DNA of 64,000 nucleotides from Cristatella mucedo. Taxonomy: Eukaryota > Bryozoa > Phylactolaemata > Cristatellidae. Of the stretch, positions 40,640 through 47,667 are shown in pieces. How positions within the stretch are numbered: position 1 is the first letter of the stretch; the number at the start of each line of letters is the position of its first letter. The stretch spans positions 859,501 through 923,500 of the forward strand of contig WPIO01000150.1 in assembly GCA_009760855.2 (NCBI GenBank), given 5' to 3'. A model generated the notes under the pieces. It was given only the letters and a program-made list of their open reading frames with translations. It did not search any database and had not been told where the DNA came from. The translations under genes and the position numbers were made by a program.

Positions 40640-41262
40640 GGCTATATCGGTCCAGGAAGTTGAGCCGCGGCGCTAACTTCCCGCCCCGGGTCGACGGTCA
40701 GGCGCCCGATATTAACTGTCGCGCTAGCCGAGAGGAGAGAGGGAACTCGAGAGCTAGTGCTCTGGATACACGAACGCGATACGGCTCCAAACTGCCCGAA
40801 GCGGAGCAGCAGACTCGTTCCATGGCGCCGACCGCTCCAGCAGCAGCAGCGGGTGAGCTGCTCGTCGTCGTCGGTTTGCCGAGCGCTGCGACTGCGTCGC
40901 CGCGCTCCTGACTCGACTCGTCTGTTCGAGCCAAAACCCAATGGCCGGCGTGCGCGCGCGCGAGAGAGGCGCGCTCTACCGCCCACCCGTAGCCTCGCTG
41001 TGGCCGCCGCTCCGACAGGTTTCGACGGCTGCCCGCCCGTTCGAGAAGTGAGGTGCCGAGAGCAGCCGCCCTCGTCTTCGGGGTCGGCTCTGCAGCGTCG
41101 GTGTATGTGCGCGCGCGCGAGAGAGAGCGCGCAATCTCGCGTAGTCGTAGCCGCTATCGCCAGCTCGGCGTCGCGAAGAAAGCGCTGGCCCGCGGCGGCG
41201 GTGCGGCCGGCAGAAGCAGGACCGACTGGCCCCGATGACGTCATCGAGTCAAAGACGGCTTA
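40640..41262 (+). promoter_or_regulatory. CpG-rich block at the 5' end of the I-kappa-B-zeta-like gene
   Basis: CpG density and GC content rise sharply between about 40640 and 41260 against AT-rich flanks (for example GCCCGCGGCGGCGGTGCGGC at 41189). The inferred first exon (40822-40852) lies inside, so this probably spans the promoter and start of intron 1. A long minus-strand frame across it (41244-40642) is a by-product of base composition. Confidence 0.6.
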
Positions 41263-44200
41263 ACCTAGCCTAGTGTTGGTGAGACGAAGTGCGGGTATAT
41301 CGTGCGATATCGTTCGCGTACGTCGCACTCGCTATACTGCTGCTGCCGTGCAGACGGTAAAGGCGACTTTCAACGCTTGGGGAATTTCTTCCGGGTCGGT
41401 GTTCATCACTCTGTCTCTCCCCTCTCTCCCCTTCTCGCCCCTCGCTCTGTCTGTCTGTCTCAGTCTGTCTGTCTGTCTGTCTGTCTGTCTGTCTGTCTGT
41501 CTGTCTGTCTCTCTCTCTCTCTCTCTCTCTCTCTCTCTCTCTCTCTCTCTCTCTCTCTCTCTGTCCTCTCTCTGTCCTTTCCCTCTCCTCTCTCTCTCCC
41601 CCACCCCATATGATGTCACGTACCAGAGGGAAGCAGCTCTGCTGCCGCTAGCTAGCCCTAGAGTGCGTTGGGCAGGAAGATGAGCAGGGGGGGTCTAGCA
41701 GCAGGCTTATCGAAAGAATAGCCTCAAAGCAGCATTTCTCACGCCCAATTGTGCCGTTGCTTAGTTGCTGTCAGATGCCGCCCGACAGGTGGGGATTACA
41801 AAGACCTGTAGCTGCTACCTGGATCTGGCGCCGCCTGCCGCTTCTTCTTTCTTCGGGCGCTGGCTGGTGGTCGCGTGCCGTCGGAGGAGCAAGGCAGCTT
41901 GAGCTCCACGTGGCCCCTCACGTGGCCGGTGACGTCAGCAAGCGCTGGCAGCGATGATTGCCTGCCAGCACTGGCTGCCACTTGTCGATCCCTTTCCGGT
42001 GCTGCCCACCGTGCTAGCCAGTCGTAATAATAATAATGATAATACATTTGATATAGCACCCTCGGAGAACTCAGAAAATCTCTTTCTAGGTGCTTTACAC
42101 TTGGCAGTTGTTTTGGCCGGAAGTTTCTGCTAGCTCGTTGATTGGCTCTCGCTAGACTTTCTCTCTCTCACTCGCTGACCGGCTGACTCATTTCGTTACA
42201 TCATTGCAGGGGCCGACCTGAGCAGCGAGAGCCGAGAGGTGAGCGATAGCCTCCGGCCAGCAGGAGAGGCAGCCTGCCGCCGTGACGTCGGGCCGCTCGT
42301 CGAACCGACCGCTACTGCTACCGCGAAACCGTCGAAGGCCTCCTCGAAGGCCGAGGCCAGCAGTGCAGCCGAGCAGCATCCGGCATGCAATGCATCCGGC
42401 CGGAGCTCAGCCGGAGGGCAGTTCGTCCAGCTCTCGGTCGACGACGACGAGTCCGAGGCGTCCGAGACCGGATCTGCAACGGGGCACGATGCCGCTGCCG
42501 CCGACTTTGCCTCGCTGCTCGACAACATCAAGCATCTCGCCCTGGACGACACGTGCGCAGCGGCGGCCGCCACTGCTGAGTTGCCGGACGCCGACGGCAG
42601 CGCAGCATCCAGCGGTGGCGAGCGTTACGAAGCCGACGAGCTCACCAGCCACGGCCCGCTGCATGGGCGGCCTGTGTATGCATCTGGCTACACATCGGCG
42701 GCGGCCTACGTGGGCGGCGGTGCAGCCATCATGCCTCAGCCGATCATGCGAACCGTGTTTCGCTGCGACGACCGAGGGCTGCCGCTCCTCTGTGACGCCG
42801 CGCTGCCACCGCTGCAGACGAAGCGGTCGGCGCCGGTGGAGAGCGACCCCTACAGTCTGCCCAACTTTGCCTCCAAGTATCGCTACGGTGGCTGCGAAGG
42901 CGACAGTGGCGTAGGGCCGACCGAGGACGACGGCTATGGCTGTGGCTACGACTTCGACGGGGAGCGGCTGCCCTCCGACGACCTGGTGCGCCTGCTGCGC
43001 ACACTGATGCCGGCCGCTGCCACGGCCAGCGCGCAGCTGCCACCGCGGCAGCGGCTCGGCTCGGAAACCACTGCTTCTGAATCGAGCTGGGACCCAGCCG
43101 ACTCGCCTCTCTCCGCCGCCACTGCATCCTCGCCGGCGTCGTCTTCCGGCTCGGTAGCCCCTGCGACGGCGGTTTTCTCCAGCCCCCTGAGCGGCCTGTC
43201 GCCTTGCCGCGGCGACGAGGTGGCAGCTGCCGGCTCGCCGCAGAGCTGGCCTCCCTCTCCATCTGCTCCGCAGCAGTGGCGGCCGCAGCAGCAGCAGCTG
43301 CCGTTGGGTTCGACGCAGTCCGACGGAACGTGCTATCCTTGGAACCGCGCCTACCCTACGAGCAGCACTGCTCCGGGTGCGCAGCTGTACGCAGCAGGCT
43401 TTAGCGGCAGCAGTGAAGGCGGTCGTTATAATCTGTACGCCGCCGGCGGCGGCTGCTACGTCAACTTGCCGGCTGCCGGTGCGCCTTCGCGTGAGCTGCT
43501 GCTGCTCGGCGGCGGCAGGGACGCGCAGGTTCCTCCCCTATCGCCTTCGCCCGTGCTCACGGACTCGTGCACACTGTACGGCGAGTCAAGCCTGCTGGGC
43601 GGCGGCGGCTGCTTCGAGAAGCTGCCGCCGCTGCCCAGCAGCGACGGCAAGCAAGTCGCTGGCCAGGAGGACGAGCTGAGCGAGAAGTTCGAAATCATCA
43701 ACCAAGTCATACGCGATGGTGAGTTGCTAGCGTGCCGATTCACCCCCTCCCTCCTCCCTGAGGTTATGGCTTTCGCTGGTCGTCGAGGAGGGCGAGGCTG
43801 GGCACGGAGGAGGCGAGCAGGATGGGGGGGCAGGGTGACGATCGCCTGCGCCTCGTTGCATCGTCGCTCAGTGACGGCGGGCTGCTCGGCAGCTGCGGCG
43901 GCGACGAACATCGCCAAATGCTCAGCGATCGACCACGTGCCACACGGTAGGTGTGGTGGCCCTGAGCCGCAACGATTGCCTATCGGGAGGGTGGGAAAGG
44001 GCCGAGGAGAGCCGCCGAGCGGAGGGCATCTTGCTCGCTCTCCTCCTCCTCCTCCTCCTCCTCCTCCTCCTCTTCTCGCATCGCCTTTTTTCGAGAAATT
44101 TGCCGGAGAAAGAGTCGATCGATGGCAGCCCATCCTTCGTTGCAGACCTGCTCCAAACCGCTCGACTTCGAGAGCAGGCCGCCGTCGGTCCTACGACCAC

Positions 44201-47200: not shown

Positions 47201-47667
47201 ATCGCCTCGGCCGGCGTGCCGTCCGTCGACTCGGCTCTGCGAACCGTCACCCTCCAGGGCGACACGTGCCTGCATCTGGCCGCCGCCCTGCGGCCTGCGT
47301 CGATGCCGGCGCTGGCCGACCGAGCCGCCATACTGCAGCTGCTCGTCAAGTGTGGCGCGCGAACGGCGGCGCTCAACCTGAGGCGCCAGCGTGCCGCCGA
47401 CCTGCTGCTGCCTCTCGACGATGCCGAGGTGAGACTGCCGCCTGAGCAGCGGCGGCCATCGAAGCTCTGATCGGTGACGATGTGGTCGCCCCGGCTGCTG
47501 CCACGCTAGCCGCGATGTGTCCACGTGACGTGCAACTTACTACAAGTATCCTCTCTCCTCTCCTGTTCCCTGTACTCTCCCTTCCTTGTCGCCGGGTCGT
47601 GCCTGCTCTATCGAGTTAACGCCTGTTCATTTTTATTTCGCAGGTCAAGAGGCTGATGGCGGAGTGA
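40822..47667 (+). CDS. NFKBIZ: Atypical nuclear I-kappa-B (I-kappa-B-zeta/BCL3-like), ten exons
   Basis: Proposed exons: 40822-40852, 42210-43718, 44146-44352, 44708-44816, 46020-46137, 46316-46411, 46591-46705, 46828-46952, 47129-47428, 47644-47667. All borders are GT-AG, phases match throughout, and the sum is 2634 nt: 877 residues plus TGA. Residues 1 to about 610 are low-complexity (Ala, Gly, Ser, Gln), as in the transactivation halves of zeta-type proteins. The ankyrin domain starts at DAEGNTYLHRVV and includes KAGQTAVYLATVKNHKLIVE, APLHHAASFGDRTLEVLHCL, GRTPLHCAILSHQ, DGYTPLHHAVASGCFELV and QGDTCLHLAAAL. A helical insertion (NAIATVRALLAAGARLDV) after the TPLHCAI repeat is characteristic of I-kappa-B-zeta. 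Such proteins bind NF-kB p50 in the nucleus and tune transcription. Exon 1 and the exon 3-4 junction rest on splice sites and phase, not homology. BCL3 or another ankyrin I-kappa-B remains possible. Confidence 0.85.
41436..41612. repeat. (GTCT)n(CT)n microsatellite in intron 1
   Basis: About a dozen GTCT units followed by a long CT run and imperfect CT/TCC sequence, just downstream of the CpG-rich block. Confidence 0.95.
42024..42106 (-). repeat. LINE/SINE-B-type tail in intron 1
   Basis: Antisense tail: TAATAATAATAATGATAATA, GATATAGCACCCTCGGAGAA and TCTTTCTAGGTGCTTTACAC. It is about 100 bp upstream of the exon 2 acceptor. Confidence 0.75.
44038..44076. repeat. (CTC)n tract near the exon 3 acceptor
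   Basis: About twelve CTC units about 70 bp upstream of the acceptor at 44145. It may serve as a pyrimidine-rich stretch for splicing. Confidence 0.9.
45120..45290 (-). mobile_element. SINE-A in intron 4 of the I-kappa-B gene
   Basis: Antisense copy: AAAGCAGCAGAAGAG, CAATAAAGGATCGCCCACTG, AATTCGAATCCACGGCCTTG and TTCTTGGGCTATTACG. Its middle has become a near-perfect palindrome (45165-45199). Confidence 0.8.
45368..45440 (+). repeat. LINE/SINE-B-type tail in intron 4
   Basis: ATGTAAAGTGCCTAGAAAG, GGTTCTCGAGGGTGCCATAC and five ATT units. Confidence 0.75.
45534..45582. repeat. Short tandem repeat, CACATGGTCAGA units
   Basis: Four to five imperfect copies of CACATGGTCAG(A/T) in succession within intron 4. 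Confidence 0.75.

Follow-up and report, generated by a model that had tools for sequence, protein, structure and literature searches.

A probable zeta/NS-type IkappaB gene in the genome of the bryozoan Cristatella mucedo

The DNA analysed here, called the window below, is a stretch of 64,000 nucleotides from the genome assembly of Cristatella mucedo (GCA_009760855.2; contig WPIO01000150.1, positions 859,501 to 923,500 of the forward strand). Between positions 40822 and 47667, on the forward strand, it contains a multi-exon gene whose predicted product combines a long N-terminal region with an ankyrin domain of the IkappaB family, resembling most closely those of IkappaB-zeta (NFKBIZ) and IkappaBNS (NFKBID), two vertebrate immune regulators that adjust the activity of NF-kappaB target genes in the nucleus.

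The gene was modelled as ten exons, every intron being bounded by GT and AG with compatible phases, and the total of 2634 nt corresponds to 877 residues and a TGA stop codon. Proposed exon 1 (40822..40852) provides the start codon, ten residues and one further base, and was placed by its GT donor and frame. Exon 2 (42210..43718), recognized by its long open frame and coding score, encodes the Ala/Ser/Pro/Gly-rich N-terminal region; exon 3 (44146..44352), uncertain and possibly skipped, was included for its GT-AG borders and phase fit. The ankyrin domain starts at the DAEGN motif in exon 4 (44708..44816) and continues with repeat 1 in exon 5 (46020..46137), repeat 2 in exon 6 (46316..46411) and repeat 3 in exon 7 (46591..46705); model fit and coding score identify these four exons, together with a shared intron in the case of exons 4 and 7. 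Repeat 4, which includes the motif TPLHCAI and an insertion of the zeta/NS type, is encoded by exon 8 (46828..46952), which also borders a shared intron. Exon 9 (47129..47428), in which two more spacings are enlarged, encodes repeats 5-6 and the C-terminal cap, and exon 10 (47644..47667), assigned by model fit, the final seven codons and TGA. The protein stops directly after the ankyrin domain.

This structure reproduces to the base the ten GT-AG exons, compatible phases and 2634 nt ending in TGA of the initial annotation, as well as its location of TPLHCAI in exon 8. Its figure of 878 codons is correct if the stop codon is counted.

The locus is a real protein-coding, multi-exon gene. Exon 2 lies in a frame that stays open over 884 codons; in first-order Markov simulations of this open stretch the longest frame had a mean of 230 and a maximum of 458 codons, and none of 300 simulations reached 513 codons. 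Using a codon table built from 836 codons of the cactus-type locus and the two p105-type loci of the same genome (see below), the called frame outscored the other two forward frames in exon 2 and in every one of exons 4-9. A sliding-window coding score, for which the codon table additionally included exons 4-9, found the called frame best of the forward frames in 11 of the 13 windows of exon 2. The hypothesis that the 884-codon frame codes on through introns 2 and 3 was discarded, as its score drops past the exon-2 donor. Another donor for exon 3, GTGAGC at 44217, was rejected because it breaks the ankyrin frame.

The ankyrin part opens with DAEGNT at residue 614, and the N-terminal region is 613 residues long (A 16.0%, S 11.9%, P 9.5%, G 9.1%, Q 4.6%). 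The previously estimated length of about 610 residues agrees with this, and so does the description as rich in Ala, Gly and Ser; Gln, also named there, is not a main component. A motif scan of the modelled protein detected no DSGxxS motif, the only related sequence being DSGVGPT at residue 242.

Exon 1 and the beginning of intron 1 are located, as the initial annotation stated for the ten residues of exon 1, within a CpG-rich block (40501..41500, no strand assigned), which is the probable promoter region. The ratio of observed to expected CpG is 1.30 for 40501-41000, the highest among the 500-base bins of the window, and 1.26 for 41001-41500, the bin mean being 0.77. No window match to the NF-kappaB-like sites GGGRNNYYCC or GGGRNWYYCC was found near the gene; the only sequences of this kind there are overlapping matches to GGGRAWTYYY within intron 1 (41379/41380). 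Extended CT/CTGT and GA tracts occur at 41409-41598, in the same intron, and at 1307-1606. Introns 1 and 4 carry the two arms of an inverted 39-nt repeat (42026-42064 and 45402-45440, 85% complementary) with the look of a miniature inverted-repeat transposable element.

The protein matched Pfam Ank_2 with an E-value of 8.4e-23. Its ankyrin run opens with DAEGNTYLH, which is of the type D-x-(D/E)-G-(D/N)-T-x-L-H when compared with the IkappaB/NF-kappaB references. In a sequence search of the PDB, human IkappaB-zeta (9bor) was matched with an E-value of 9.2e-16 in one continuous alignment over query positions 20-281. Searches were also performed against 12 references; those of NFKBIZ, BCL3 and NFKBIA were identical to PDB chains, and the exact letters of the others are provisional. 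NFKBIZ ranked first by blastp, with 79.0 bits and 27.7% identity over 271 columns, followed by NFKBID (62.4), NFKB1 (59.3), NFKBIA (55.8), NFKB2 (51.6), BCL3 (39.7) and cactus (38.1 bits), and it was also first by phmmer (58.6 bits). An NCBIfam scan of the ankyrin part was uninformative, with six families all far under their cut-offs, and the fold of exon 9 alone, predicted without an alignment, was too poor to use (mean predicted local distance difference test score 52.6).

The whole genome (572,011,866 bases in 688 contigs) was searched for relatives of the gene. The search with the ankyrin domain revealed no close second copy: it gave six matches, all six inside this gene. An IkappaB-like consensus gave 137 matches. 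Of three loci read from this list, one (L029) is cactus/IkappaB-alpha-like, with DSGLGS and DSGHST ahead of its ankyrin repeats, and two others (L027 and L028) are p105-like ankyrin loci. Seven RHD matches were found on contigs C166, C188 and C332, and none on C56, the contig of the window. Those on C188 and C332 share the contigs of L028 and L027, at 32-39 kb and approximately 18 kb, respectively, from the stretches fetched, and on the same strands; at the level of contigs and strands, this RHD and ankyrin layout is compatible with p105-type genes. For the window gene no joint coding of RHD and ankyrin domain, as in p105 or Relish, was found. The two p105-like loci were sisters in both trees which included them, at 99/98 (16 rows) and 100/98 (IkappaB/NF-kappaB rows), and represent a duplication of the probable NF-kappaB partner.

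The introns were compared on an alignment that included eight references. Of the six in the ankyrin domain, three matched introns of the family loci in the same genome, both in column and in phase. The phase 2 intron after DAEGN (exon 4) is common to the cactus-type and both p105-type loci; the phase 1 intron before GRTPLH (after exon 7) is common to both p105-type loci; the phase 0 intron before GELDGYTPLH (after exon 8, repeat 4) is common to the cactus-type locus and is not found in the p105-type loci. Two introns had no counterpart, and the last one, located 3 columns from a p105-type intron of the same phase, was not counted. When six introns were placed at random, three coincidences were obtained once in 200,000 trials, or in 133 of 200,000 if a tolerance of two columns was allowed. 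By its sequence the protein is an IkappaB that descends from the IkappaB/NF-kappaB ankyrin family.

Within this family, the spacing of the repeats distinguishes the gene. From LH to GA in repeat 4 the spacing is 31 for the window gene; zeta has 46 and NS 39, and each of the ten other sequences (BCL3, alpha, beta, epsilon, p105, p100, Drosophila cactus, the cactus locus and the two p105 loci of the same genome) has 19. The corresponding spacing in repeat 6 is 29 in the window gene and 24 in both zeta and NS, and 20 in all eight of the others that could be assessed. Between repeats 5 and 6 the difference is small: 39 in the window gene, 36 in zeta and 37 in NS versus 33-35 in the others. The insertion which the initial annotation described as of zeta/BCL3 type is indeed present in exon 8, but it is a zeta/NS feature that BCL3 lacks.

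Profiles were built for seven groups. The best domain of the window protein scored 63.1 bits with the zeta/NS profile, 43.9 with p105/p100, 38.0 with ankyrin, 27.9 with beta/epsilon, 20.6 with alpha/cactus, 20.0 with Notch and 8.1 with BCL3; for the full sequence the zeta/NS score was 67.1 and that of any other group at most 52.5. The cactus and p105 loci of the same genome were each scored highest by the profile of the expected group. In the trees, the window gene grouped with zeta and NS at 82/89 (13 rows), 70/82 (16 rows) and 97/95 (13 IkappaB/NF-kappaB rows, without outgroups); in the IkappaB-only tree NS and zeta were sisters, and the window gene stood next to the pair. The insertion and the profiles bear the subfamily claim more than the trees do.

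Taken at the level of sequence, these results support the assignment of the gene to the IkappaB-zeta/IkappaBNS group, and since its place is next to the zeta and NS pair, the name zeta/NS co-ortholog is to be preferred. The proposal of an invertebrate ortholog or co-ortholog is supported in the same way by introns, insertion and trees, with approximately unbiased (AU) tests formally rejecting no alternative; the contrary outcome named at the time, an ankyrin domain falling with cactus/IkappaB-alpha or outside the IkappaBs, did not occur. We consider, with good confidence, that the locus encodes a nuclear-type IkappaB, the invertebrate pro-ortholog of the NFKBIZ and NFKBID of vertebrates.

Several observations limit the gene model or weigh against this interpretation. 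Of the ten exons initially proposed, exons 1 and 3 are unproven, and exons 2 and 4-9 carry coding signal. Exon 1, at 31 bases, is too short for a coding test. The frame scores of exon 3 were -0.30, -0.38 and -0.30, showing no preference over its full length, and the sliding window covering its first part slightly favored the called frame. Since splicing exon 2 directly to exon 4 keeps the frame and gives a model which is likewise closed (2427 nt, 808 residues), exon 3 could be skipped or erroneous. In exon 7, the score of one reverse frame was slightly above that of the called frame (0.19 vs 0.17). A basic nuclear localisation cluster was not found in the N-terminus by motif scan, RRQR at residue 855 being the only one in the protein.

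Regarding the assignment itself, 9bor was 17th by E-value among the PDB matches listed (the best 60 of 352 distinct sequences matched), behind long repeat arrays and designed ankyrins, and phmmer placed NFKBIA (45.0) and NFKB2 (37.7) above NFKBID (34.9 bits). The consensus search of the genome did not have the window gene in its list, and other divergent members may be missed too. Both the introns of the other loci and the spacing landmarks were chosen by eye. The full score of the zeta/NS profile was higher for one of the p105 loci of the same genome (p105a, 73.1) than for the window protein (67.1), and therefore only the ranking within a protein is informative. Finally, the window gene is a long branch in the trees, and because of this none of the ten AU tests rejected its grouping with alpha/cactus, BCL3, p105/p100 or ankyrin/Notch (p 0.055-0.265).

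It is unlikely that the gene is a BCL3-type nuclear IkappaB, or a pro-ortholog of all nuclear IkappaBs rather than of zeta/NS specifically. The AU tests allow this placement (p 0.109 with 13 rows, 0.265 with 16 rows, 0.055 without outgroups), and published trees group BCL3 with zeta/NS (PMC3553144). Against it are the spacings of BCL3 (19, 33 and 20), with neither the insertion nor the two longer spacings, and the score of the BCL3 profile, the lowest of the seven.

Marginally less likely is a fast-evolving second inhibitor of the cactus/IkappaB-alpha type, which would hold NF-kappaB in the cytoplasm. The intron after repeat 4, common to the cactus-type and not to the p105-type loci, the second rank of IkappaB-alpha by phmmer and the AU tests (p 0.0755 with 13 rows, 0.218 with 16 rows, 0.0904 without outgroups) would all be in agreement with it. 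However, a cactus-type locus carrying DSG-type motifs is already present elsewhere in the genome, whereas the window protein has no DSGxxS motif; the repeat-4 insertion is absent from cactus and IkappaB-alpha, and the alpha/cactus profile scored the best domain at less than a third of the zeta/NS value.

A degenerating or mispredicted gene, of which only the ankyrin part is translated, is improbable: the low-complexity N-terminus and the status of exons 1 and 3 are in its favor, but the 2634 nt contain no frame-breaking lesion, and in exons 2 and 4-9 the called frame is the best-scoring forward frame. Least probable of all is an unrelated ankyrin-repeat gene converged on IkappaB-like spacing, for which the identity of only 28-31% to zeta/NS, the ankyrin profile (38.0 bits for the best domain, 52.5 for the full sequence) and the AU tests of the ankyrin/Notch grouping (p 0.0855 with 13 rows, 0.24 with 16 rows) would leave room, but which has to account for three introns shared in position and phase, the insertion pattern common with zeta/NS and a single-stretch IkappaB-zeta match across nearly the whole domain.

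In the window as a whole, scans for Rfam families (at the gathering threshold) and tRNAs found nothing. Ten of the 454 open reading frames (ORFs) of at least 60 codons were scanned with Pfam, and three of the ten gave a match. An ORF at 54065-54601 (reverse strand) has a cyclin-dependent kinase regulatory subunit domain (CKS, E 8.1e-20) and is a probable neighbour gene; another, at 3380-4225 (reverse strand), has an AAA+ lid domain (AAA_lid_3, E 5.9e-8) and by eye the look of a fidgetin/spastin-type ATPase. The third, at 11126-11581 (forward strand), is a DDE_1 transposase fragment (E 1.7e-22), which we take to be of Tigger/pogo type. Similar ORFs at 5252-5707 (forward strand), 21374-21736 (reverse strand) and positions 395-1108 of the p105-like locus L028 look by eye like the C-terminal part of a non-long-terminal-repeat retrotransposon; the first of them had no Pfam match.

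A contig of 21,008 bases (C688) of the same assembly carries a mitochondrial COX1 gene, which is open under the invertebrate code with TGA read as tryptophan 15 times, AGA/AGG as serine 11 times and AAA as lysine twice; these positions presumably fit conserved COX1 residues. From ORFs and tRNAs identified by eye over 20,000 bases, one strand has the orders cox3-K-A-N and I-nad3, and nad1, P (reverse), nad6, cob, S, T (reverse), nad4L, nad4, H, nad5, F; nad2 is located on the opposite strand and cox2 was not recognised by eye. In the piece joined from L040 and L041, about 2.1 kb seemingly occurs twice: on its reverse strand, the same ORFs and sets of tRNAs recur near 5030-6095 and 7145-8210. 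The mitochondrial order of Lineus, as given in a table of PMC2728741, is nad1-Y-P(reverse)-nad6-cob-S-T(reverse)-nad4L-nad4-H-nad5 and cox3-K-A ... N-I-nad3, whereas in C688 atp6 and cox1 are in other places. The code and the arrangement of the genes on this contig point to a lophotrochozoan. Further COX1-like matches, with in-frame stops under the standard code, were found on C166, C83, C549 and C299, and the matches outside C688 are perhaps nuclear copies of mitochondrial DNA.

The IkappaB protein of the window is likely, by homology with its mammalian relatives, a nuclear cofactor of p50-containing NF-kappaB. As in mammalian IkappaB-zeta, its ankyrin domain would dock on NF-kappaB dimers with a p50-like subunit, here derived from the p105-type genes, and the Ala/Ser/Pro/Gly-rich N-terminus would act as a regulatory arm recruiting transcription cofactors. 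The protein would then modify the output of target-bound NF-kappaB rather than retain it in the cytoplasm. Since no basic nuclear localisation cluster was found, its action in the nucleus is something we infer; lack of such a motif does not exclude nuclear entry. More tentatively, and with the odds somewhat against the proposal as a whole, the zeta/NS branch with its repeat-4 insertion may pre-date the protostome-deuterostome split as a cofactor of p105-derived dimers, the N-terminal arm having been rebuilt here as a fast-evolving, Ala/Ser/Pro/Gly-rich region of 613 residues, with exon 3 possibly optional, on a conserved docking domain. Finding the insertion pattern of zeta and NS in what is probably a lophotrochozoan supports such an early origin. 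Insertion spacing and intron positions also provide concrete characters for sorting invertebrate IkappaBs, which identity alone sorts poorly.

Compared with human IkappaB-zeta (PDB 9bor), the ankyrin domain shows 28% identity over 271 columns, the first of the 12 references, and has in common the insertion after TPLHCA(V/I) and the two longer spacings. It differs in the shorter insertion in repeat 4 (spacing 31 vs 46), in an N-terminus of 613 residues with no basic cluster by motif scan, and in its long branch. With human IkappaBNS it shares 31% identity over 271 columns, the NFKBID sequence used being provisional, and the same insertion pattern. The N-terminus of IkappaBNS is short, unlike the long one of the window gene.

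In mice and humans, according to PMC11293394, all three nuclear IkappaBs interact with p50, zeta being chiefly a coactivator and NS chiefly a corepressor, and zeta is located at sites co-bound by p50 and RelA. Pickle of Drosophila, described in PMC5026699 as a nuclear IkappaB that groups with Relish, resembles the window gene as an invertebrate IkappaB without a recognised N-terminal domain; unlike Pickle, the window gene is not found with the p105 type in three trees (Pickle was not among the rows).

A survey of 2013 regarded IkappaB-zeta and IkappaBNS as vertebrate-only (PMC3553144), and the portion of PMC11432056 at hand has nothing on an invertebrate zeta. Invertebrate genes named zeta have been reported, and are likened to the present one by name. 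In sea urchin larvae, expression of nfkbiz was changed by 6 h of bacterial exposure and lowered on knock-down of the IL17 receptor (PMC5457136; reviewed in PMC5660111), and in the bobtail squid expression of IkappaB-zeta correlates with TBK1 and shows earlier up-regulation under modelled microgravity (PMC10844198). With zeta genes already known by name from sea urchin and squid, a gene of this kind in an invertebrate is not in itself new, and the gene of C. mucedo is a divergent added member of a known family whose characters are clearly marked.

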